The notes under the pieces: model-generated
Seen by the model: only the letters and a program-made list of their open reading frames with translations
What the model was told of the DNA's origin: nothing
The model's database searches: none
In this document: positions 10,447-47,740 of the stretch, piece after piece
Numbering within the stretch: the stretch's first letter is position 1
How the letters are laid out: each line of letters begins with the position of its first letter
Made by a program: the position numbers and the translations under genes
Assembly: GCA_029204225.1 (NCBI GenBank)
Contig: CM055099.1
Location: 59,625,510-59,689,509 of the forward strand
Origin: Diphasiastrum complanatum
Taxonomy: Eukaryota; Streptophyta; Lycopodiopsida; Lycopodiales; Lycopodiaceae
Length of the DNA stretch: 64,000 bases
Direction: 5' to 3'

Positions 10447-11800
10447 TTATGTTTCAAGGTATTTATCCACTGTTGCAGCCAAAGTTGACTTAGGGACTGC
10501 TCCCAGAACAGCATCCTTCTTCTCACCTCCCACGAAGATCATTATAGTTGGGATGCTACGAATGGCATACTCTGTTGAAATATCAGGATTCTCGTCAGTG
10601 TTAAGCTTAAAACACTTAAGCTTCCCTGCATACTGCCGTGCGAGATCCTCAATCACAGGAGCAATCATGTGGCAAGGTCCACACCAAGGTGCCCAAAAAT
10701 CCACAAGCACAGGAATGTCACTATCAAGCACAAGCTCCTTGAATGTCAGATCGTCTACTACGCCAACTGCATCCATGAACAATCGAAACCGTGATAATCT
10801 ACACTTCTGCGCTATACAAGTGACTAGCAACCAGTATCTTTTTCAAAGAATAAAATTCAAAATACTGTTTATAAAAAAGTGAAGATATCTCCCAAACAGC
10901 GCCTTGTTATTTCATCACTCGAAAAAAATAATTATCTCATATCACATGCAACTAGCTAAATCAGATTTCCTCATTCACGTTCATGTTCTGCAAAATTCAA
11001 AGCAGGCTGGCAGAAAGGAACCAGTCACACAGCAAGCAAGCAAGTATTTCCATGTAGCGGTATTCTTTAGTAAAGTCAAATATCAGAATGAGTTACTTGT
11101 TGAGGAAACTCGAATGAATAGTTCTTCAGAATGATAAAGCCCCATTCCAATGTCAACATTGTAAAAACAGCAGAATCAAAATAGTGTCCCCTGCCATCTA
11201 CTTCACAAGGACAGAGAGCCAGATGATGAAACCAGAAAGGCTAGGTTTGGAGGCAATTTCCTCGTAGTCTTTTCGTTCTATTGCAATGGGACCCCTATAC
11301 TGCAGCGACCCGGGACTCAGGCCTCCGTCTTCGTGGACGCATCAACCACCCTCACTTAAACTAAATGCCGAAATGCACACACATGGGATTTTGCCTGATT
11401 TTCGTTTGACCTAAAATATATAAGGAGAAAGAAACTGGCACTAACAGATGAATCTGATATTGGCTAAAACATTATCAGTGCCCTACAAGAAAGGAGGCTT
11501 TGTTTGAGGAAAACCTGCAGCAGAAGTGGTTTTCTGAGCATCGCTTGCAAATCCTTTGAGATACCAAGCACTGCAATTTAGAGGTGAGTGCGGAAGCAAC
11601 CTGGTGAAAATACTCATTTCAAATTGCGAGTAGACGGGTAGAGCGGATCTGACAGCCACAGGAAACCCTAGTCCAACAGAAGAAGCGGAAGAAGATGCTG
11701 CTGTGCTTCTTGTTGTTGCAGCGACTGATGAGAAGGCCAAGCGCATTCCTCCGCAGCCGCCTAGAGCCCTCCTCCCTGTGTTCGCCATCGCCATCGCCAT
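10447..11800 (-). CDS. Chloroplast m-type thioredoxin, two exons
   Basis: Exon 1 is 11515-11800 and exon 2 is 10447-10766. The 748-bp intron has CTGCAG|gtttt at the donor and atgcag|TTGG at the acceptor and is phase 1 (the split codon gives V96). The joined product is 201 aa. Residues 1 to about 90 are Ala/Ser/Arg-rich and look like a plastid transit peptide. Residues 97-201 form the thioredoxin fold with the redox site WCGPC at 123-127, cis-Pro168 in RSIPT, and a C-terminal [15 protein letters not shown] block typical of m-type thioredoxins. The family reduces Calvin-cycle and other stromal enzymes with electrons from ferredoxin-thioredoxin reductase. The residue after WCGPC is His, where Arg or Lys is usual. 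The ATG at 11800 was chosen because it opens the transit-like sequence after a purine-rich leader. No damage is visible, so this is probably a live gene. Confidence 0.93.
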
Positions 11801-11920
11801 CTCTTCTTCTTCTTCCTCCTCGGATCTTCAGCTTTTTCTGTTGTAAATGAAACTCCAACAGCGAGCTTTCCCCCTTTCTTTCTTAATTCGCTTCTTCATC
11901 TAGCCTCGATCAAAACTCGA

Positions 11921-11937
11921 CACGTGTCTGCCACGTG
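11921..11937. promoter_or_regulatory. Double G-box upstream of the thioredoxin gene
   Basis: Two CACGTG palindromes (11921-11926 and 11932-11937) lie 11 bp apart, about one helical turn, and 121-137 bp upstream of the ATG. G-boxes bind bZIP and bHLH factors and are common in light-regulated plant promoters. A TATTTAAA-like box on the gene's strand at 11989-11996 is farther upstream, so the sites could be in the promoter or the 5' UTR depending on the real start. Confidence 0.55.
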
Positions 11938-12090
11938 GCAAATATTGATTCACTGGGAGTGAGGCCAAATTACTCCTTTTTTTTTTTCTTTAAATAACAT
12001 TTTTAAGGAAGGGTTTATATGTTCCCACAATTTTGAAAAAATTGTAGTCCACCAATTTGCGCTTGACACGGAGACGGTGTACACACCATT

Positions 12091-12271
12091 GGCCAGTATG
12101 TGCACGACATGTCTCGCCACATCAACATGTTTTAACACATGTTGCACGACACGTGTCTAAATTTTTTGTCAGCACACTATCGGCCAGTATGTGCACGACA
12201 TCTGTCTCGCCACATCAGCATGTTTCAACACATGCTGTGCGACACGTGTCTAAATTTTTTGTCAGTCATAC
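12091..12271. repeat. 91-bp tandem duplication rich in ACGTG
   Basis: Two copies (12091-12181 and 12182-12271) both begin GGCCAGTATGTGCACGACAT and end with ACACGTGTCTAAATTTTTTG. Each contains an ACACGTGT core and a short inverted repeat around CATGTTT(T/C)AACACATG. The pair lies 290-470 bp upstream of the thioredoxin ATG. More ACACGTGT cores follow near 12275 and 12342. Confidence 0.85.
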
Positions 12272-12359
12272 TAACACGTGTCCGGCAAAGCGTATGGCCC
12301 ACATCTGGCCATGCATTGTCACGTTGCAACATGTGTCAATACACGTGTCAATTGGGCCA

Positions 12360-12363
<4 letters not shown>

Positions 12364-12422
<59 letters not shown>

Positions 12423-12486
12423 GGTCTCCCTCACTCTCTCTCTGTCCCTCGGTCTCTCTTTGTCCCTCTCTTGCTCCTGGGCTGCT

Positions 12487-12550
<64 letters not shown>

Positions 12551-12664
12551 GGGCTGCTGCCTCTGGCTGGCGCGTGCTCTCTCCCCCTCTGTCTCCTCTC
12601 GCTCCCCTGGGCTGCTGCTGCTGCGCTCTGCCTCTACTCCGTCTTCTTTGCTGCTGTTGCTCCG

Positions 12665-12739
<75 letters not shown>

Positions 12740-12856
12740 GGGCTGCTGCCTCTGGCTGGCATGCGCTCTCTCTCCCTCTGTCTCCTCTCGCTCCCCTGGG
12801 CTGCTGCTGCTGCGCTCTGCCTGCTCTGCCTCTACTCCGCCTTCTCTGTTGCTCGC

Positions 12857-12912
<56 letters not shown>
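12364..12912. repeat. Higher-order (CT)n array
   Basis: Four pure CT tracts (12364-12422, 12488-12548, 12668-12737, 12861-12912) are separated by spacers. The last two spacers (12549-12667 and 12738-12860) are ~120-bp near copies starting CCTGGGCTGCTGCCTCTGGC, giving a tract-plus-spacer unit of about 190 bp. The long open frames here (Ser-Leu or Arg-Glu repeats) are artefacts of the dinucleotide run. Confidence 0.95.
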
Positions 12913-12915
<3 letters not shown>

Positions 12916-14331
12916 TCACATTATTGCTATTTTTTGGTATAGAAACCCTAAAAAATTAACCTAACTAATCTAACCCAAATTTTGCATTTCATACAAGCTA
13001 AACAAAACATTGCATTTCATAGAACAAAACCACATCCAATTTGATTGCAAAACAAAAGTACGTAATTTTGCATCTTCCTTTTGATTCCAAAACAAAAGTA
13101 CATAGTTTCGCATTCATATCTCATGAAAGTTGTTTACAAAACAACAAAATTCTATTCCAAAACAGCATAGCATATTGTTGAGAGTCTTCCAAAACAAGAG
13201 TGTTTGGTGCTGACAATCTTCCAAAACAGCAATGCTCGCATGGCTCACAATTCCTCAGATTCGCACTCACTCAAGCTCACATACCCAGATTGCACATCAT
13301 TTCCACCAAGTCCATCATTTCCACCATCATTCTATAGAATAGGCTCAAAAGATTTGAGCCCCCTAGCCTCGTCCTGCATCTTCAAACCATACAAGTTATC
13401 AAACCTCGGAGCACAACTTTTAACTCGAAAATCTACATCTTTTGGAAAAAAGATTGCCATCACATCATCCATGGTCAGAAGGCTTGGTGCCTTCATAGCC
13501 TTCCAGACTGCAGCAGCTCTCACCACGTCCATTCCTTTTCCCTAGAATGGTGTCACCCATGTGGCTGCTGGATATTACTTGTCTGTCCTTAGCATAGCCA
13601 ATAAAACCTGAGGAATGATTGAACTAACTCTACTTTTCATATGATAAACTGAAAATATAAATGCTCACTCAAACAGATTAACAGGGGTTAAAGATACACG
13701 ACTTTTAATCTCAGAAGCACCATACTTAATGTACTCTTCACGACCTTTATCTGTATCACTCTGATCTACACCATACATAGCGCATTGAAAATGATCCTTT
13801 CCAAAATCCTTCAAACAGTATCCGATCATTCCATGCCAAGTATGAATACCCTTTTGCCTCAGGTACCTACACAACACCAAGTTTCCAGGTGGATCTTCTT
13901 TTGTCCAACCCAAATATTGCTTCAACAAGTGATTGACCTTTAGTACAGAAGATGCAAAGCACTTACAAATCATTTGAAAATGCAGATCAAAACCTCCTCT
14001 CTCAAGCCCACATAAACCAGCAATGCATTCATTCCTCAAGAATTTCTCAATCACACCTATAAGCTTTGGATCAACATCACAACCAGCAATCCCCATTGTT
14101 ACACTTAGTTCATGCACTTTTTTGGGTTTCTCATACCGCTTCACAAGCTTGAAGTCAGCACACTTTTTTACCTTCAATTTCTCACTACCTGCAGGAATTC
14201 TAAACTCATCATTAGCATGTCCATTGATTCCACACTCTAGAACTCCCTCATTTGCCTGCTTTTGAACCATTGTCAATCTGCCAAACACATTTCAGTCAAA
14301 AACACATCAGAAAGGTGAATCTGTAATCTGG

Positions 14332-14334
<3 letters not shown>
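12913..14334 (-). mobile_element. Candidate HUH/HUQ Rep-like transposon relic between (CT)n tracts
   Basis: This ~1.4-kb segment is bounded on both sides by (CT)n in the same orientation (left tract ends 12912, right tract begins 14335), as expected if a mobile element had inserted into a CT microsatellite. It carries one recognisable reading frame (13332-14288, minus). No helicase domain is seen, unlike in Helitrons. The 3' flank (12913-13320) holds short near-repeats such as TTGCATTTCATA (near 12983 and 13012) and CCAAAACAAAAGTAC-type units (near 13045 and 13088). The ends are inferred only from the microsatellite junctions. Confidence 0.5.
13332..14288 (-). pseudogene. Rep-like HUH/HUQ endonuclease gene with three in-frame stops
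   Basis: A single frame runs 957 nt. It opens at a GTG (14288); the first ATG is codon 7 (14270), and a possible splice acceptor (TTTGGCAG) lies just before, so the true 5' end may be missing. Visible motifs, numbered from the GTG: HELSVTMG (59-66, motif I position), H103-F104-Q105 in GGFDLHFQM (motif II, HUQ type), and Y157-x-x-K160 in GYCLKDFG (motif III, candidate nucleophile Tyr). A C-terminal block follows with YPAATWVTPF, MDVVRAAAVWKAM and DDVMAIFF. TGA (13665-13667), TAA (13575-13577) and TAG (13542-13544) interrupt the frame without shifting it. Such proteins nick and join single-stranded DNA. Related single-Tyr HUH proteins are, as I recall, described in Replitron transposons; that assignment is inference. 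Confidence 0.65.

Positions 14335-14412
<78 letters not shown>
14335..14412. repeat. (CT)n microsatellite
   Basis: Pure CT run of about 78 bp, immediately upstream of the Rep-like frame (minus strand) and in the same orientation as the tract ending at 12912. Confidence 0.98.
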
Positions 14413-14416
<4 letters not shown>

Positions 14417-14647
14417 TGACATTCTCTCTCTGCTGACTTGACATTCTCTGACTGTCTATGTGGTTGTGGCTGTTGCGCTGACAGCAATTGCAGATTCTCA
14501 TAGGACTGAAGCTTAATTTTGTGATTCCTCTATCAGTACACTGAAAGTAATGACTCCATGCTACCATTTCACCTGAGAGGTTGCAAAGTATTATTTCATG
14601 TTGTTTTACTTGCAACTCATGTTATCTCTGTAACAGCCTATCCATCA

Positions 14648-14649
<2 letters not shown>

Positions 14650-14684
<35 letters not shown>

Positions 14685-14758
14685 GCTCACACACGCACAC
14701 CCACATGTCAGCCCACACACGCACACACACACACGTCAGCTCACACATGCACATACAT
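14650..14758. repeat. (CA)n microsatellite with GTCAG interruptions
   Basis: A pure CA run at 14650-14681 is followed by about 80 bp of CA-rich sequence broken by GTCAGCTCACA-like units (three occurrences). No coding potential. Confidence 0.95.
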
Positions 14759-15575
14759 GCCTGCTGGCCTCACTCCACCTCCTGATACCATATCTGGATT
14801 ACAATCACAGTTTGATTGATGGTTAGACTTAGTAACAAGCTAAAATTCTCAACGATACCACTGAAGGCAGATTTCAACATATGCCAGTCATCGCGACATT
14901 CTTGCTCTTCTAAGTTTAAGTACGAATCTCTATTCGTTGTGAAGAAAGCTTTTTGATTTCACTTTATAGAACATAATGCTAATGGTATGCTACTTCAAGA
15001 GGCAAAGAGATAAGGGCTACAAGTGTGGTTAGAGGGTACTAGTTATTGTATTGTTTCTTCAATAGCAATCACGGTAAATCATGAGGGGCTCATATGAGTA
15101 CTAAGCATAGATTGATGTCATGTTTTGCTAAGCACAATGAGCCATTTGAGATTAAAAGCGTATATTCTCCTATCCTTAGTAGTCACTGTTTGCCATTTTT
15201 CTACGCATTAATATCATGCACACCAAGAACTAGAGTGCTTGATAACTAACATAGGTTAGAAAATGGAAAAATATTTTAATTAGCATTTACACATTTCATG
15301 TACATGCAAGAATAAGTTGTATTTGAGTCCTTTTAGAGATTTATTGCATACTCACTCGAATCTACATCCAACTTTGAATTGTTGATGTTTAGCATTACAT
15401 TTCTCCAAAATTGTTAGAAGAAAGACACATGTTAGTAAATACTAATCTAAAGATTGTGTACTTAATAAACGGAAGACATTGGACCGATACATTTTACTCT
15501 ACCATTAGTAAAAGCCTGAAAGGCTAGGAGTTAACAAACGAAGTCCTATTTCATCACAAGGTTCATATTTGTAAG
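14759..15575. other. AT-rich spacer, no gene seen
   Basis: No frame with recognisable motifs is present on either strand. The right edge abuts gypsy RNase H coding at about 15576. Confidence 0.5.
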
Positions 15576-16050
15576 AGGCACTGGCAATGATATATGCGAT
15601 TAAGAAATTTTGTCACTATTTGATGGCCACTCATTTTGCCTTTTATACGGACCATCAACCCTTGCTCTATCTTGTTAACAAAACCTGCAACACAAGAAGA
15701 ATCACTCGATGGCTACTTCTGTTGTTGGAGTTTGATTTTCGGATAGTAGTTCGCAAGGGAAAACAACACTACATGGCGGATCATGTATCGCGAATCAAGG
15801 GGAACGAAATTGCAACCCAACCTGATGATGAGCTACCCGATGCTGCCTTATTTTACGTTGACACAGTACCGGAATGGGCTGCCGACATAGTTGAATATCT
15901 AATGAGGGCCAACTAGACAAATCACTACCAAAGCTGGATCAACGAAAAGTGATCTTGAAAGATAGACCTTATCAGCTGATTGCTGGCCAATTGTACCGAA
16001 GAGGGTCAGATGGGATTCTTCAGCGATGTATTCTTCCTCGCGCTCATTAG
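15576..16050 (+). pseudogene. Ty3/gypsy RNase H to integrase-linker fragment
   Basis: From EALAMIYAIKKF the frame gives a gypsy RNase H C-terminus: FYTDHQPLLYLVN (TDH is the catalytic Asp context), RRITRWLLLLLEFDF, and ADHVSRI with its Asp, then the linker to integrase. After the stop at 15914 the sequence continues in another frame as LIAGQLYRRGSDGILQRCIL, so there is a frameshift. It stops near 16050, just before a T-rich run. Nothing recognisable lies between there and 16346. Confidence 0.85.
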
Positions 16051-26915: not shown

Positions 26916-27560
26916 TGTTAAATTTTAGAGTTTAAGGACTGAAATTGATCTACAAATGATCACAAAGAGTGATTGGTAGCTTGGGATCTCGATCTATATC
27001 AAGACTAGCTTCCAAATCTAGCTTCTACTTGACAATCTTTGTGATTCCAAGCAAGAACAATAAAAAATGATGATCCACGGCTTCACATGTGTGAAGTACA
27101 GCTACTATACGGCCTGATAACAAAGAAATAGTTTACTTATCATTTACTAAGCATTCATCCACAAAGAAAGTGCTTAAGAGAGTCAAAACACAAAGATTGC
27201 TTCACAAACCAAGATTTCTCATCATTAGCTCAGCAATAAATCCATCATAGATCAAGTACCAAATCACCATAATCTCTCTCTAAGCTGCATCCAGCATGTG
27301 TGGGACAGCTCATTGTACTCATCCATATCCACTTTGGATAAGATCTATCAAGTTTGTCACATCATCCATTGGTGGTTTGTGTTGACCTTCTAGATTCCTA
27401 CAATCTAGGACCTAACTCCTATAATTTAGGAGATGTCATATTAGACTCAAATGAAAGCTAATCAAAATGGATCTGAATATTAAAAGTGTCATTTCACACG
27501 TGTGGATCCACAGATGTCAAAATACATCAAAAACCATGTGAAAATTGCTTAATTCTAACA
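26916..27560 (-). repeat. LTR-a of the array (3' LTR)
   Basis: Runs on the minus strand from TGTTAGAATTAAGC to TTTAACA, with short TGTTA/TAACA inverted ends. It carries the CTTCACATGTGTGAAG palindrome at 27081-27096 and TTCACACGTGTGG at 27493-27505. Confidence 0.93.
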
Positions 27561-27575
27561 CTCCTCCTCAATTTT
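27561..27575 (-). other. Polypurine tract of array unit 1
   Basis: Minus-strand AAAATTGAGGAGGAG directly precedes the TGTTAGAATT LTR start. An identical tract lies at 29611-29625. Confidence 0.88.
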
Positions 27576-28549
27576 TACATGATACAACTATAATACATCT
27601 ATCTAAAACTCCTAAGACTGATCTTAACTTGATAGATGAAGCCTTTGGCAAGGCTTTAGTGAGTAGATCAGCAAGGCAATCTGAAGAAGACACATCATGT
27701 AGTTTGATCTCCTTTGCTTGAACCTTTTCCCTCACAAAATGGTGAGCAATCTCTACGTGCTTGCTCCTTGCATGGAATGTGGGATTGGTTGCTAATGCTT
27801 GGCTTGATTGGTTGTCACAAAATATTGTTGGCTGCTCCTTGGCCTCTATGATTTGCAATTCCACCAAAAGCCTCTTCAACCATAGGATTGGTTGCTAATG
27901 CTTGGCTTGATTGGTTGTCACAAAAGATTGTTGGATGCTCCTTGGCCTCCATGACTTGCAATTCCACCAAAAGCCTCTTCAACCATAGGTTCTCCTTTGT
28001 TGTGGATGTTAGTGCCGTGTATTCCGATTCGGTTGAAGATAGAGAAATAGTATCTTGCTTTTTGGAAAGCCAAGACACTATGTCATTGCTAAGGAAGGTA
28101 ACAAAAACACTTGTGGACCTCCTATCCACCTTACCACCTGCAAAATCAGCATCCGAATATGCCCTTAAGGCAAGATTAGATCCATCATATAAAATGCCAA
28201 AGTTCTTGGTGGCCGAGGTGTACCTCAACACCCCTTTTGCATTTTTCCAATGACAAACCAATGGATTTTGCATAGATTCACTAAGTTTGCCTACACTATA
28301 ACTTAGATCAGGTCTAGTTATAGTAAGATAGATCAAGGAGCCTACAAGTCTCCTATATAGTGTGATGTCCTCAAAGGATGCTTCATCATCACTATTGGAA
28401 ACTTTTACATTTTGCTCCATAGGAGTTTCTACTCCTTTACAATCTTTCATTTCAAACTTTTCTAAGATAGAAGAAGCATATTCGGATTGACAAATAAAAC
28501 TCAAATCCTTGCTTCTTGAAACTTCTATTCCTAATTTTGGAAGTGCCAA
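27568..28549 (-). pseudogene. Copia RT end and RNase H, array unit 1
   Basis: The frame from 28549 encodes the RT C-terminus (GIEVSRSKDLSFICQSEYA, then ETPMEQNVKV, then TRPDLSYSVGKLS) and RNase H with AYSDADFAGG, SLSSTESEYTAL and IFCDNQSS, which carry the expected acidic residues. A 103-bp tandem duplication (27784-27886 and 27887-27989) repeats the region encoding MKRLLVELQ to NQSSQALATNP and shifts the frame. The terminal part (HVEIAHHFVREK to LLTKALP) therefore lies in a second frame, 27568-27879. The opening codon at 28549 is not an ATG but TTG in deletion-junction sequence, so no normal start exists. Confidence 0.9.
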
Positions 28550-28948
28550 TGCCTTCCTATGGTGTTTAGAATTGGTTTTAGTTTCACTCTTGAACTAAAA
28601 AACATAAGCCTCAAACTCTCTCTCAAGGATCTGTAGGTTTAATAACATTCTAACACCATTCACTCACCAAATCTATAATGGAAACAATGGTTTTTCATAA
28701 GCACAACACTAGTTTCACTCTACACAACTTGTTTGAAACTCAAATATTAAAAAAACACAAAGTTTTGGTGAAAGTACAACTCCAGCAGCCTCTCACACGT
28801 GTGATAAGTACATCTGAACTTTACACACTAATCTAAACCTCAACATCACAAGTAAACCACTAGAAAAGGTCGCCCTCCTTCAAAGTGAATCTAGCACCAA
28901 TGCTTTCACCAAAATGAAGATCTTTGGATCATCAACTAAGCTCTTTGA

Positions 28949-28964
28949 CTTGGCTCTGATACCA
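28949..28964 (-). other. Primer-binding site, array unit 1
   Basis: Minus-strand TGGTATCAGAGCCA begins directly after the LTR-b end (TTTGACA). This sequence is complementary to the 3' end of plant initiator tRNA-Met, the usual copia primer. Confidence 0.92.
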
Positions 28965-29610
28965 TGTCAAATTTCAGAGTTTAAGGACTAAAATTGATCT
29001 ACAAAATGATCACAAAGAGTGATTGGTAGCTTGGGATCTCGATCTATATCAAGACTAGCTTCCAAATCTAGCTTCTACTTGACAATCTTTGTGATTCCAA
29101 GCAAGAACAATAAAAAATGATGATCCACGGCTTCACATGTGTGAAGTACAGCTACTATACGGCCTGATAACAGAGAAATAGTTTACTTATCATTTACTAA
29201 GCATTCATCCACAAAGAAAGTGCTTAAGAGAGTCAAAACACAAAGATTGCTTCACAAACCAAGATTTCTCATCATTAGCTCAGCAATAAATCCATCATAG
29301 ATCAAGTACCAAATCACCATAATCTCTCTCTAAGCTGCATCCAGCATGTGTGGGACAGCTCATTGTACTCATCCATATCCACTTTGGATAAGATCTATGA
29401 AGTTTGTCACATCATCCATTGGTGGTTTGTGTTGACCTTCTAGATTCCTACAATCTAGGACCTAACTCCTATAATTTAGGAGATGTCATATTAGACTCAA
29501 ATGAAAGCTAATCAAAATGGATCTGAATATTAAAAGTGTCATTTCACACGTGTGGATCCACAGATGTCAAAATACATCAAAAACCATGTGAAAATTGCTT
29601 AATTCTAACA
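28965..29610 (-). repeat. LTR-b of the array (shared middle LTR)
   Basis: 646 bp, TGTTAG to TTTGACA on the minus strand. It is almost identical to LTR-a and serves as 5' LTR of unit 1 and 3' LTR of unit 2. Confidence 0.93.
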
Positions 29611-29625
29611 CTCCTCCTCAATTTT
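29611..29625 (-). other. Polypurine tract of array unit 2
   Basis: Same AAAATTGAGGAGGAG sequence as at 27561-27575, next to LTR-b. Confidence 0.88.
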
Positions 29626-30599
29626 TACATGATACAACTATAGTACATCTATCTAAAACTCCTAAGACTGATCTTAACTTGATAGATGAAGCCTTTGGCA
29701 AGGCTTTAGTGAGTAGATCAGCAAGGCAATCTGAAGAAGACACATCATGTAGTTTGATCTCCTTTGCTTGAACCTTTTCCCTCACAAAATGGTGAGCAAT
29801 CTCTACGTGCTTGCTCCTTGCATGGAATGTGGGATTGGTTGCTAATGCTTGGCTTGATTGGTTGTCACAAAATATTGTTGGCTGCTCCTTGGCCTCTATG
29901 ATTTGCAATTCCACCAAAAGCCTCTTCAACCATAGGATTGGTTGCTAATGCTTGGCTTGATTGGTTGTCACAAAAGATTGTTGGATGCTCCTTGGCCTCC
30001 ATGACTTGCAATTCCACCAAAAGCCTCTTCAACCATAGGTTCTCCTTTGTTGTGGATGTTAGTGCCGTGTATTCCGATTCGGTTGAAGATAGAGAAATAG
30101 TATCTTGCTTTTTGGAAAGCCAAGACACTATGTCATTGCTAAGGAAGGTAACAAAAACACTTGTGGACCTCCTATCCACCTTACCACCTGCAAAATCAGC
30201 ATCCGAATATGCCCTTAAGGCAAGATTAGATCCATCATATAAAATGCCAAAGTTCTTGGTGGCCGAGGTGTACCTCAACACCCCTTTTGCATTTTTCCAA
30301 TGACAAACCAATGGATTTTGCATAGATTCACTAAGTTTGCCTACACTATAACTTAGATCAGGTCTAGTTATAGTAAGATAGATCAAGGAGCCTACAAGTC
30401 TCCTATATAGTGTGATGTCCTCAAAGGATGCTTCATCATCACTATTGGAAACTTTTACATTTTGCTCCATAGGAGTTTCTACTCCTTTACAATCTTTCAT
30501 TTCAAACTTTTCTAAGATAGAAGAAGCATATTCGGATTGACAAATAAAACTCAAATCCTTGCTTCTTGAAACTTCTATTCCTAATTTTGGAAGTGCCAA
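29618..30599 (-). pseudogene. Copia RT end and RNase H, array unit 2
   Basis: The predicted proteins match unit 1 with at most one residue difference (RCTIVV against RCIIVV near the C-terminus). It has the same 103-bp duplication (29834-29936 and 29937-30039) and the same deletion junction upstream of the RT end. Both defects therefore existed before the unit was doubled. Confidence 0.9.
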
Positions 30600-30998
30600 T
30601 GCCTTCCTATGGTGTTTAGAATTGGTTTTAGTTTCACTCTTGAACTAAAAAACATAAGCCTCAAACTCTCTCTCAAGGATCTGTAGGTTTAATAACATTC
30701 TAACACCATTCACTCACCAAATCTATAATGGAAACAATGGTTTTTCATAAGCACAACACTAGTTTCACTCTACACAACTTGTTTGAAACCCAAATATTAA
30801 AAAAACACAAAGTTTTGGTGAAAGTACAACTCCAGCAGCCTCTCACACGTGTGATAAGTACATCTGAACTTTACACACTAATCTAAACCTCAACATCACA
30901 AGTAAACCACTAGAAAAGGTCGCCCTCCTTCAAAGTGAATCTAGCACCAATGCTTTCACCAAAATGAAGATCTTTGGATCATCAACTAAGCTCTTTGA

Positions 30999-31014
30999 CT
31001 TGGCTCTGATACCA
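30999..31014 (-). other. Primer-binding site, array unit 2
   Basis: TGGTATCAGAGCCA on the minus strand adjacent to LTR-c, as in unit 1. The leader from here to about 30600 is non-coding and holds the TCTCACACGTGTGA palindrome near 30841 (28791 in unit 1). Confidence 0.92.
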
Positions 31015-31682
31015 TGTCAAATTTCAGAGTTTAAGGACTAAAATTGATCTACAAAATGATCACAAAGAGTGATTTGTAGCTTGGGATCTTGATCTATATC
31101 AAGACTAGCTTTCAAATCTAGCTTCTACTTGACAATCTTTGTGATTCCAAGCAAGAACAATAAAAAATGATGATCCACGGCTTCACACGTGTGAAGTATA
31201 GCTACTGTATGGCCTGATAACAGAGAAATAGTTTACTTATCATTTACTAAGCATTCATCCACAAAGAAAGTGCTTAAGAGAGTCAAAACACAAAGATTGC
31301 TTCACAAACCAAGATTTCTCATCATTAGCTCAACAATGGATCCATCATGGATCAAGTACCAAATCACCATAATCTCTCTCTAAGCTGCATCCAGAACGTG
31401 TGGGATAGCTCATTGTACTCATCCATATCAACTTTGGATAAGATCTATCAAGTTTGCCACATCATCCATTGGTGGTTTGTGTTGACCTTCTAGATTCCTA
31501 CAATCTAGGACCTAACTCCTATAATCTAGGAGATGTCATATTAGACTCAAATGAAAGCTAATCAAAATGGATCTGAATATTACAAGTGTCATTTCACACA
31601 TGTGGATAGGTCCTCACATGTGTGGATCCACATAGATTTCAAAATACAACAAAATCTAGGTGAAAATTGCTTAATTCTAACA
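31015..31682 (-). repeat. LTR-c of the array (5' LTR)
   Basis: 668 bp, longer than the other two because of a local duplication of a CACATGTGTGGAT block near 31598-31630. It differs from LTR-a and LTR-b at more positions than those differ from each other, and it has the exact CTTCACACGTGTGAAG palindrome at 31181-31196. Confidence 0.92.
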
Positions 31683-44104: not shown

Positions 44105-47100
44105 ATGGCATCTATAAATGCATATCTTTTGGATACTAATGAAAGGCTCAACAAAACTAACTATTCCATATGGAAAGTTAGAATGGAATCTATCATGATC
44201 ATGCAAGATCTGATGGAAATTGTAAATGGTAAGGAGGGTGAACCTATTCATCCTCAAGAAAAAGCCAAATACATCAAGAGGTGCAATGTTGCACTACATT
44301 GCATAAAAATGAATGTTGCAAATGAACTCTTAAGAGAGGTAGGAGATTGCACTTCAGCTCAAGATGCTTGGGAGACTTTGCAAAAGGTCTATGAATCCAA
44401 GAACCAAACTAGAATGTTAGCTTTGAAGAATCAAATCTATAGAAGCTATCAAAAGAAAGGAGAGAGTGCACATACTTTTGTCCTAAGAGTAAAGGAATTG
44501 AACAAAGAGCTAGCCTTTATAGGTGACCCTATCAAGGATGAAGAGCTTGTTCAACTCATATTGAATGGACTAAGCTTTAAATTTGACAATTTGGTTCAGG
44601 GATATGCAATTATGGGTAAGCTACCCATACTTGAAGAACTCCAAGGCACACTCATGGCCGAGGAATCAAGAAGGAGCCAAATGCAAGAGAGGATGGATAG
44701 GCTTTCCATCCAAGGTGGAGATGACCAAGCTCTCTTCACCAAAGGCAAAGGCAAGTCCAAAGGCAAAGGATCAACATTCAAGAAGTCTACAAAGCTTGAG
44801 GATCAAGAAGGACCCCCAAAGGCATCTCCATCAACCACCAAAGTCAAGAAGGACAAATCAAAGGTGAAGTGCTACTATTGTAGCAAGATGGGGCATTATG
44901 CCTCGGAATGCTTCAAGAGGAAGCAAGATCAAAGCCAAGCCAACATGAGCAAAGAGGAGGAGGAGGAGAGTTCACATGAGGACTCTCTCATGATGTCCAT
45001 ATTTTCTTCAACAAGCTTCAAAGGAGAATATCCTTGGTGGATTGACTCGGGTGCTAGTTCACACATGACTAGTAAAAGGGAGTTTTTCTCTTCTCTCTTA
45101 TCTTATGATGGACCTATAAAGTCTATCTATACAGCAAATGATGAAGCTTGTAAGATTGAAGGAGTTGGTAGCATTCCCCTTTGCTTAGGATCTTCCAAAA
45201 AGATCAACATAGAAGGTGTTTTGTACATTCCTACAATAACAAAGAATCTACTAAGTGTTGGCCAAATGGTGGACAATGGTTTCAATGTTGACTTTGCTTC
45301 AAATGAATGTTTCATCAAGAAGAAGGGTAAGATAGTGGCTAAGGGCACTAGACTTGGCAAACTTTATAAGCTGGATGCATTTGTGGATACTAATGTTGTC
45401 ATGTTGGCCGAGAAGGGCAAGATATCTACCTTTACTTTATGGCACAAAAGACTTGGACATGTCAACTCGGGTTCCATGGAGGCTATGATCAAGGAGGAGT
45501 ATGCTTTAGGCCTACCAAGGTCTATTGGGAAGGAAGACAAGGTTTGTGAAGCTTGTGCCTTATCCAAGGCACATAAGAAGGTGTTTCCTAACTCCATCAC
45601 AAAGTCATCTCATCCTCTTGAACTCATACACTCGGATGTGCACATTGCTAGCACCAAATCTAATGGAGGTTCATCCATGTTTTTAACCTTCATTGATGAC
45701 TACTCAAGATATTGTTGGGTGTTCTTACTTTCCTTCAAGTCTCAAGTATTTGATACTTTTGTAAAGTTCAAGTTGTTTGTGGAAAAGCATCATAATCATA
45801 GCATCAAGATTCTTAGAAGTGACAATGGTGGAGAATTCATCTCCAATGAGTTCAAGGCCTTTTGTGAGGAGGAAGGGATCAAGAAAGAGACTTCTTGTCC
45901 TTACACTCCTCAACAAAATGGAGTTGCTGAAAAAAGGAATAGAACATTATGTGAATGTTCTAAGGCTTTAAGATTAGATGCTTGTTTGCCCAAATCCTTT
46001 TGGGGTGAGTCTCTTGTATGTGCAAACTACTTGATGAATAGGGTGTCTTGCAAAGCCATTGAAGGCAAAACTCCTTATGAGATGTTGTATGGAAAGAAAC
46101 CCAATCTTAATCACTTGAAAGTTTTTGGGTGTATATGTTATGTGCATGTGCCATTGGAAACAAGAACCAAGGAGGATCCATCTTCCACAAGAGGGATCAT
46201 GCTTGGATATGCAAGCTCAAGCAAGGGCTACAAAGTCTATCTCCCATCCTTGAACAAATTTGTTGTTTCAAGGGATGTCATCTTTGATGAACATCATATG
46301 CATATGCTTGAAGAAGGCTCAAGTGCTCCAACAATCAAGAAGAAGATGGCCGAGGAGCAAGATCTTGGTTTTGAAGAGGAGCTCATGGAGGAGCAAGCAC
46401 CAAACCCACCTATCACACCAAGGAGATCTTCAAGGGCAAAAGTGGAGCCATCAAGGCTCACATATCAAGGCAAAGGACAGCAAGTTGAGGGTATCTCATC
46501 CACTTCTTATGCTTTATCTAGTTTTGAAGAACCGTCTAATGTTGAAGATGCATTGAACTCCAAAGAATGGTATAAAGCTATGTTGGATGAGTATGATGCC
46601 TTGATTGAGAATGAAACTTGGTTGCTTGTTGAGAGACCTCAAAGGAATGTAATAGGATGCAAGTGGGTCTTCAAGCTTAAGTTGAATGCAAATGGGAGTG
46701 TTAACAAACATAAAGCAAGATTAGTTGCAAAAGGTTATGCTCAAGAGAGAGGGATAGACTATGAGGAAACTTTTGCACCCGTGGCCAAGATGGTCACAAT
46801 AAGACTAATCATTGCACTTGCATCACATTTTGGATGGATTCTATGTCAAATGGATGTCTCTAATGCTTTCTTGAATGGTTTTTTGGAAGAGGATATCTAT
46901 ATGGAGCACCCACAAGGGTTCATCAAGCATGGAATGGAGAACAAAGTATGCCATCTCCAAAGAAGCATCTATGGCTTGAAGCAAGCCTCGAGATCTTGGA
47001 ATTCAAGACTACATTGCTATCTTATTTCACTTTCTTTTGTTCAAAGTGAATATGATCCCACTCTTTACATTAAGTTTGATGATGTTGGTATTGTACTTTT

Positions 47101-47740
47101 ACTCATTTATGTAGATGACATCATCATTAGTGAAAATAGTGTTGATGGTATTGAAAAAATCAAGATAGATCTATCCTTAGAGTTCAAGATGGTAGATCTA
47201 GGGTGTCTTCACTTCATCTTAGGCATAGAAGTACTTAGAGGGTCTGATTTTATCTTTATAAGTCAAGTAAACTATGCTCAAAGTCTTTTGAAGAAGTTTA
47301 AGATGGAAGTATGCAAAAGTGTTGACACACCAATGGAGCAAGATGTAAAAGTGCCGAATGAAGATGATGAAAGATCCTTCATGGACATCACTTTGTTTAG
47401 GCAACTTATAGGTTCCTTAATGTGGATCACTATAACTAGACCAGATCTTAGCTTTAGTGTATGTAGGTTGAGCCAATCCATGCAAAAGCCATTGAATATC
47501 CATTGGAAAAAGGCTAAGAGGATTCTAAGATACATCTCAGGTACATTGGATTTTGGGATTCTATATAGAGGAGATGTGATTAACCTTCATGCATTTAGTG
47601 ATTCAGATTTTGTAGGGGACAAGAGGGATAGGAAATCAACAAGTGACTATTCAACTTTCATAGGAGAAGGTGTGGTTTCATGGCTTTCAAAAAAGCAAGA
47701 AACTATATCTCTATCTTCAACCGAGGCCGAACTAGAATGA
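44105..47740 (+). CDS. Ty1/copia Gag-Pol polyprotein (element C), 3' truncated
   Basis: One uninterrupted 1,211-codon frame from an ATG. In order: UBN2-type Gag (1 to about 240), zinc knuckle CYYCSKMGHYASEC (256-269), protease DSGA (314-317), GAG-pre-integrase (LWHKRLGHVN and CEACALSKAH), integrase with D511, D573 and E609 (DX35E spacing), and RT from about 830 with CKWVFKLK, then AFLNG and YVDD (1002-1005). RNase H follows from about 1150 with SDSDFVGD and SLSSTEAE. The frame stops at AELE; normally ~100 more residues, including the last catalytic Asp region, follow, and no PPT or 3' LTR is found. One polyprotein processed by its own protease is the copia norm. Gag to RT look intact, so the insertion is young, but the cut RNase H and missing LTR prevent autonomous cycling. 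Confidence 0.95.
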   Translation: MASINAYLLDTNERLNKTNYSIWKVRMESIMIMQDLMEIVNGKEGEPIHPQEKAKYIKRCNVALHCIKMNVANELLREVGDCTSAQDAWETLQKVYESKNQTRMLALKNQIYRSYQKKGESAHTFVLRVKELNKELAFIGDPIKDEELVQLILNGLSFKFDNLVQGYAIMGKLPILEELQGTLMAEESRRSQMQERMDRLSIQGGDDQALFTKGKGKSKGKGSTFKKSTKLEDQEGPPKASPSTTKVKKDKSKVKCYYCSKMGHYASECFKRKQDQSQANMSKEEEEESSHEDSLMMSIFSSTSFKGEYPWWIDSGASSHMTSKREFFSSLLSYDGPIKSIYTANDEACKIEGVGSIPLCLGSSKKINIEGVLYIPTITKNLLSVGQMVDNGFNVDFASNECFIKKKGKIVAKGTRLGKLYKLDAFVDTNVVMLAEKGKISTFTLWHKRLGHVNSGSMEAMIKEEYALGLPRSIGKEDKVCEACALSKAHKKVFPNSITKSSHPLELIHSDVHIASTKSNGGSSMFLTFIDDYSRYCWVFLLSFKSQVFDTFVKFKLFVEKHHNHSIKILRSDNGGEFISNEFKAFCEEEGIKKETSCPYTPQQNGVAEKRNRTLCECSKALRLDACLPKSFWGESLVCANYLMNRVSCKAIEGKTPYEMLYGKKPNLNHLKVFGCICYVHVPLETRTKEDPSSTRGIMLGYASSSKGYKVYLPSLNKFVVSRDVIFDEHHMHMLEEGSSAPTIKKKMAEEQDLGFEEELMEEQAPNPPITPRRSSRAKVEPSRLTYQGKGQQVEGISSTSYALSSFEEPSNVEDALNSKEWYKAMLDEYDALIENETWLLVERPQRNVIGCKWVFKLKLNANGSVNKHKARLVAKGYAQERGIDYEETFAPVAKMVTIRLIIALASHFGWILCQMDVSNAFLNGFLEEDIYMEHPQGFIKHGMENKVCHLQRSIYGLKQASRSWNSRLHCYLISLSFVQSEYDPTLYIKFDDVGIVLLLIYVDDIIISENSVDGIEKIKIDLSLEFKMVDLGCLHFILGIEVLRGSDFIFISQVNYAQSLLKKFKMEVCKSVDTPMEQDVKVPNEDDERSFMDITLFRQLIGSLMWITITRPDLSFSVCRLSQSMQKPLNIHWKKAKRILRYISGTLDFGILYRGDVINLHAFSDSDFVGDKRDRKSTSDYSTFIGEGVVSWLSKKQETISLSSTEAELE

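Follow-up and report, generated by a model that had tools for sequence, protein, structure and literature searches.

The present study concerns a 64,000-nucleotide stretch of the lycopod Diphasiastrum complanatum (contig CM055099.1, positions 59,625,510 to 59,689,509; hereafter the window), which carries a Replitron-type transposon on its minus strand at approximately 12860..14962. We are highly confident that this locus is a decayed Replitron copy, whose transposase was once about 350 amino acids (aa) long and consisted of a HUQ single-tyrosine HUH nuclease followed by a Replitron_C domain. It is a new, broken member of an already known group: Replitron membership, the breakage of the frame, paralogues with open frames, common element ends and two paralogous empty-site junctions were all observed. 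A sequence-only reading of this DNA had suggested either a plant single-tyrosine HUH transposon such as a Replitron or a close unnamed relative; the results support a Replitron itself, and the unnamed relative falls away. In addition, we propose, at about even odds, that the copy comes from a recently active lineage in which GA simple repeats serve as the terminus and also as the target, with a cut after GA, a GA-tailed 3' end and an IS608-like rule operating in a eukaryote.

Results

The transposase frame runs from 14288 to 13245 on the minus strand, codons and residues being counted from 14288, and it encodes both Pfam Replitron domains. The three motifs named in the sequence-only reading all lie where it had placed them: HELSVTMG at residues 59-66, the HFQ metal-binding motif (H103 and Q105) at 13974..13982, and the predicted catalytic tyrosine motif YCLK (Y157-C-L-K160) at 13809..13820. 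The extent given there, 13332..14288, was too short, as the frame reaches 13245 and homology to other copies spans about 12860-14962. The part that is still open, 13665..14288, holds the HUH endonuclease domain in 207 codons, with an ATG at codon 7. In a profile search of the frame, PF21859 (Replitron_HUH) matched at 13731..14099 (residues 64-186; profile positions 3-127 of 128; E 1.4e-12; 48.5 bits against a cut-off of 28.5). When the same frame was read through its stops, PF21860 (Replitron_C) matched at 13446..13610 (residues 227-281; profile positions 23-77 of 77; E 1.8e-10; 41.5 bits against a cut-off of 27), with two stops inside the match. In-frame stops were found at codons 208, 238, 249, 319 and 348, and the first four, which break the remainder of the frame (13245..13667), are considered premature because open relatives terminate at the position matching codon 348, the family stop codon at 13245-13247. 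The possibility of an intron spanning codons 208-249 was set aside, as the open paralogues and the proteins of the liverwort Riccia sorocarpa described below are continuous there. A six-frame read-through Pfam scan of 11000-15997 detected no helicase, as the sequence-only reading had expected; its hits were Replitron_HUH, Replitron_C, part of a Gypsy-type RNase H and matches of low complexity. The RNase H fragment (PF17917) lies near the Replitron on the plus strand, at 15569-15733. In the structure prediction, strands and helices follow the HUH order at moderate confidence, HFQ falling on a strand and Tyr157 on a helix, and Rep domains of circovirus and Faba bean necrotic yellows virus were among the best structural matches, tied with unrelated folds.

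Outside the genome, the only relatives scored in protein searches were three Replitron HUH proteins of R. sorocarpa. They were found among 86 candidates (E 9.3e-24, 5.1e-22 and 2.9e-14) in a second search, in which a 400-residue read-through query was scored on residues 40-207; a first search with the 207-aa query gave 34 candidates and none with E <= 1, its length limits having kept out longer proteins. H103 and Q105 align to HVQ in P0122 and HLQ in P0123, P0124 being without that stretch, and GYCLKD, with its single tyrosine, is invariant in all three. The motif I-like HELSVTMG is present, but its H59 is not conserved, being M or L in Riccia. The C-terminal block, which had looked conserved from the letters alone, is the Replitron_C region, and its 145 aa taken alone matched all three liverwort proteins (E 3e-7 to 1e-5, with only those three sequences searched). 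When the three proteins were searched against the window with tblastn, a single locus was found (E 4e-36, 1e-34 and 7e-26) and everything else had E > 1; the match is therefore beyond chance. No match was found in viral contigs, genome contigs, PHROGs or Rfam at gathering scores, and sequence searches of solved structures returned nothing meaningful.

Within the host genome (1,744,706,496 bases, or 1.74 Gb, in 5176 contigs), at least 150 relatives were detected, as all 150 scored candidates matched out of 344 first-look candidates. The intact paralogues that the sequence-only reading had proposed to look for are present: L004 and L006 have single open frames of 350 and 346 aa, each with Replitron_HUH and Replitron_C only and no helicase, and further copies with open frames are among the candidates listed. 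A copy on contig C2025 encodes a protein identical to that of the window copy, and the alignment continues through its surroundings across all 3.7 kb compared; it is probably the other haplotype of the window locus. The core DNA of L010, L012, L015 and L017 is 97.6-98.3% identical among these four and 93.5-93.9% identical to the C2025 copy. L014 and L016 represent one insertion on two contigs, 99.7% identical with the same flank. More distant copies are L024 (50% protein identity), L034 (56%), and L029, L030 and L032 (65%). Still other Replitron copies (L035, L038, L043, L045 and L046; 49-51% protein identity) carry opposite-strand CT tracts directly before the HUH frame.

Element ends were compared at 34 loci (38 fetched, with four recognised duplicates removed). 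Near copies start at GA|ATGTC and finish with ATGTGAGTT and a GA tract, beyond which the flanks differ. In the type A copies L009, L010, L011, L015, L017 and L019, the 5' end is ATGTCAACAGTGAT or a close variant directly after GA, and the 3' end is ATAGCAATAATGTGAGTT, then a GA tract, then differing flanks, except in L009, which lacks this 3' end; about 2 kb separates the common ends, for example in L010. The distant copies L024, L034, L029, L030 and L032 end in ATGTSARTT followed by (GA)n. The window copy fits the family, with ATGTGAGTT at 12913..12921 and a (GA)n tract at 12860..12912 on the minus strand, the flanks beyond differing between the copies read. The 3' motif followed by at least five GA units was observed in 11 of the 34 loci and twice in L013, so that 12 of the 18 motifs lying in the expected range have the tract; at other places in this DNA GA follows the motif in 2 of 17 cases, and in the window in one of eight, namely this element. 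Before the 5' motif, the GA run measures 18 bp in L009, 5 in L011, 2 in L015, 8 in L017, at least 60 in L019, 16 in L024, 15 in L034 and 8 in L035, reaching at least 8 bp at six of these eight recognised 5' ends. Matches to the 5' motif not considered to be the end were left out, namely those near -80 at an internal GT-rich site (L009, L010, L011, L015 and L019), one in L023 and a second in L035 (GA run 9). GA-oriented arrays of at least five units occur outside the elements at 0.158 per kb (16 in 101,192 bp of the fetched loci). A short repeat, GAGAATGT, was observed at the 5' ends (including the GA of the flank) and in the 3' ends of L024, L029 and L034, type A 3' ends having ATAATGTGAGTT. 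Beyond the tracts, where 12 bp were compared at eight loci, the sequence shared was at most 4 bp; a GA or GAGA duplication would go unnoticed within the tracts. In L012 the 3' flank is itself a repeat; seven other copies of it were fetched, three passed the anchor test (L048, L049 and L054), each of which lacks a Replitron at that place and has a GA tract preceding the repeat. This repeat family, which starts ATTAGAATTATTATATTAATG (2140 first-look candidates, 40 scored), thus adjoins GA tracts in the copies read.

The 5' part of the window copy is rearranged or truncated: in blastn comparisons with paralogues, homology ends at about 14962. The segment 14291-14598, which includes an (AG)39 tract at 14335..14412 on the minus strand, is absent from type A copies. 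This tract is internal in the window copy and in L013, and L014/L016 start at it, as if an internal GA tract may have served as an alternative end. A 1.42-kb element within a single (AG)n array had been considered because arrays abut 12912 and 14334, and was dropped, since in the window copy and L013 the upstream array lies inside the element, and homology runs on to 14962. Separately, 12364-12912 contains CT tracts, partly within a 189-bp tandem unit with CTGGGCTGCTGC, and is open in several frames, probably through low complexity alone.

Two insertions were compared with paralogous empty sites. For L010, 31 matches to the joined flanks were obtained, 8 of them crossing the junction, and three of these 8 were read (L056, L057 and L059, the last lying about 3 kb past the L010 element on the same contig). 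The empty sites read GAAGCGC, an AG tract and ACTTGA-AGTAAC, the tract being (AG)8 in L056 and L057 and an interrupted 14 bases in L059; the filled site reads AAACGC, (AG)24, AATTTGA, the element, (GA)28 and AGTAACG. The left cut therefore fell after GA, six bases past the AG tract, and the 3' (GA)28, absent from all three empty targets, was brought in by the element or formed during insertion. For L011, three of the 10 matches (L060-L062) cross the junction and read GAAGAGAAAAAAGAGA-AGAGACCCGAGAGAGAGA-CAGATATG; in the filled site GAAGAGAAAAAAGAGA is kept before the element, and (GA)28 and then CAACAGATATG follow it. The left cut was thus again after GA, within a purine-rich GA tract, and on the right side some target bases were lost or replaced. 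The idea that both GA tracts are the halves of a split target was weakened by L010, whose 3' (GA)28 is not in the target according to the empty sites.

The 3' untranslated part of the window copy contains six copies of TGTTTTGNAA, an iteron-like array at 13045..13228 on the minus strand that accounts for six of the seven matches in the window, with 1.9 expected from shuffles, the pattern having been chosen after the repeats were seen. Among 768 segments of 332 bases in the window, 11 hold at least six copies of any such word; two of these correspond to this array and the other nine fall within tandem arrays. None of 1000 Markov shuffles reached five copies. In the 3' part of 37 other loci, eight have 2-4 copies (L010, L012-L017 and L032, with L014 and L016 being one insertion), L020 has one and 28 have none, including L024, L029, L030 and L034; L018, the twin of the window locus, has six. 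The repeats are not a general feature of the family. DNA folding of the 3' end piece and of the piece before the frame was no better than in shuffles, and only 4 of 200 shuffles fold as well as 13013-13130 or better (z -2.0).

Elsewhere in the window, a Copia polyprotein frame of 1211 codons (44105-47740) encodes gag, integrase and reverse transcriptase. Its best-scoring named relative (P0001, Rhynchospora) is 36% identical, no protein among the best 120 listed exceeds 43%, and several broken Copia pieces are also present. A tandem duplication of about 2.64 kb (26916-31607) comprises 26916-29557 and 28965-31607, 98.9% identical and overlapping by about 590 bases.

Discussion

Replitrons are characterised by a single catalytic tyrosine with an H-U-H/Q motif and are not known to have a helicase; the group was reportedly named in 2023, in the founding paper by Craig. 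The locus described herein resembles them in its Replitron_HUH and Replitron_C domains, single tyrosine, small size and liverwort relatives, in that no helicase was found, and possibly in the short repeat at the ends of some copies. In the available part of a published account, Replitrons are elements of 0.9-4 kb with short direct repeats of 5-11 bp and no inverted repeats at their ends, and with target-site duplications of 2-8 bp; seed plants and hornworts are described there as lacking them (PMC10741241). Measured against that portion of the account, the lineage would differ in its 3' (GA)n tract, its GA-rich targets and possibly the lack of a separable target-site duplication.

The open relatives beside GA simple repeats hint at how insertion sites are chosen, and a sequence of events can be proposed. 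First, the nuclease would nick single-stranded DNA after GA through Tyr157, forming a 5'-phosphotyrosine link, a chemistry described for HUH enzymes in general in the accessible part of a published source (PMC13231165). Second, the element might be copied or peeled off as a single strand, from GA|ATGTC to the 3' ATGTGAGTT-(GA)n end, with the (GA)n tail either carried by the element or made with it; internal GA tracts could be used as alternative ends, as L014/L016 suggest. Third, the strand would be joined to another GA-rich site, and the GA of the left flank would be retained as part of the next cut site, like TTAC in IS608. The TGTTTTGNAA repeats near the 3' end are a candidate binding site, and this is the weakest step of the proposal. 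In the passages seen on IS608 (IS200/IS605 family), each monomer has one tyrosine and the TTAC target stays in the left flank, where it is needed for the next round (PMC5934647). To that extent the two systems are alike, both having a HUH transposase and inserting 3' of a short left-flank sequence; IS608 differs in being bacterial, in belonging to another protein family and in its guide-hairpin pairing, whereas the 3' end piece in the window folds no better than shuffles.

Several observations weigh against this proposal. No 3' motif with at least five GA units was seen in 23 of the 34 loci, many of these being truncated or divergent copies, and L017 has a short tract that is then interrupted. 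The 5' ends are not all ATGTC, as L012 starts slightly inside, after (AG)20, and in L013 and L029 a GA tract is followed by other first bases. In L015 the flank is a (GT)20 run that closes with GA, in L010 GA alone adjoins the junction, and the window copy reaches its 5' limit outside any GA tract. Only two insertion sites were resolved, via paralogues, and for L010 the homology with these paralogues on the left covers just the final 41 bases of the query flank. The structural match of the predicted fold is also tied with unrelated folds.

A less probable but serious alternative is that the GA tracts do not reflect target preference, the 3' tract being the element's own GA-repeat end and the 5' tracts arising by chance or by microsatellite slippage after insertion. 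This would agree with the absence of the L010 3' (GA)28 from three empty paralogues, with its 5' tract of (AG)24 against the shorter tracts of the empty sites, and with a 3' tract at L011 that has 28 units where the empty sites have five. However, GA arrays are sparse outside the elements, yet a GA run of at least 8 bp precedes six of the eight 5' ends recognised, and both empty targets are GA-rich.

With regard to the window copy itself, its open HUH part, with 207 codons and all catalytic residues, might be a domesticated nuclease gene. In favour of this, all four premature stops lie 3' of the HUH domain, but such asymmetry is weak with four stops. Moreover, CpG dinucleotides are depleted in the frame (observed/expected 0.25, against 0.41 in the window), which would fit methylated, decaying DNA, as in silenced sequence, and the open copies L004 and L006 have two more residues than the window copy immediately ahead of HFQ. 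Domestication is improbable. Helitrons are also eukaryotic HUH transposons, with two catalytic tyrosines and a fused helicase, and a relic could lose domains; a Helitron fragment without its helicase is nevertheless very improbable, as Pfam places the domain in Replitron and Replitron_C follows it, the open paralogues L004 and L006 carry only these two domains, the six-frame scan of 11000-15997 found no helicase and the tyrosine is single. An endogenous CRESS-DNA virus Rep, a HUH domain followed by a superfamily 3 helicase, would account for the circovirus and Faba bean necrotic yellows virus matches and is no more credible, given that those matches tie with other folds, that Replitron_C stands in place of the helicase, none being found in that scan or in L004 and L006, and that the locus belongs to a multicopy family with common ends and empty sites.

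Insertion into simple repeats has counterparts among other transposons. Helitron-like elements of Lepidoptera differ from the present lineage in their animal hosts, their two tyrosines and their helicase. They resemble it as eukaryotic rolling-circle-type transposons in simple repeats, disrupting (GAAA)n microsatellites according to the part of the report available (Coates et al. 2010). Likewise, the MuTAnT elements of Medicago are plant DNA transposons that target TA microsatellites, although they are Mutator-like and not HUH elements, again according to the accessible part of the source (PMC4486113). GA targeting is not mentioned in the passages found in the Replitron literature, a set that did not extend to the founding paper (Craig 2023), and no literature from 2021 on was found for a microsatellite insertion preference of plant HUH transposons.

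Replitrons are a young and little-studied group, and in the sources available little was found on their target choice. With near-identical copies, open frames, common ends and empty sites at hand, the cut rule of a eukaryotic single-tyrosine HUH transposase becomes testable in vitro. The simple-repeat landing site provides the hypothesis for such a test, and the GA rule is the part worth testing.
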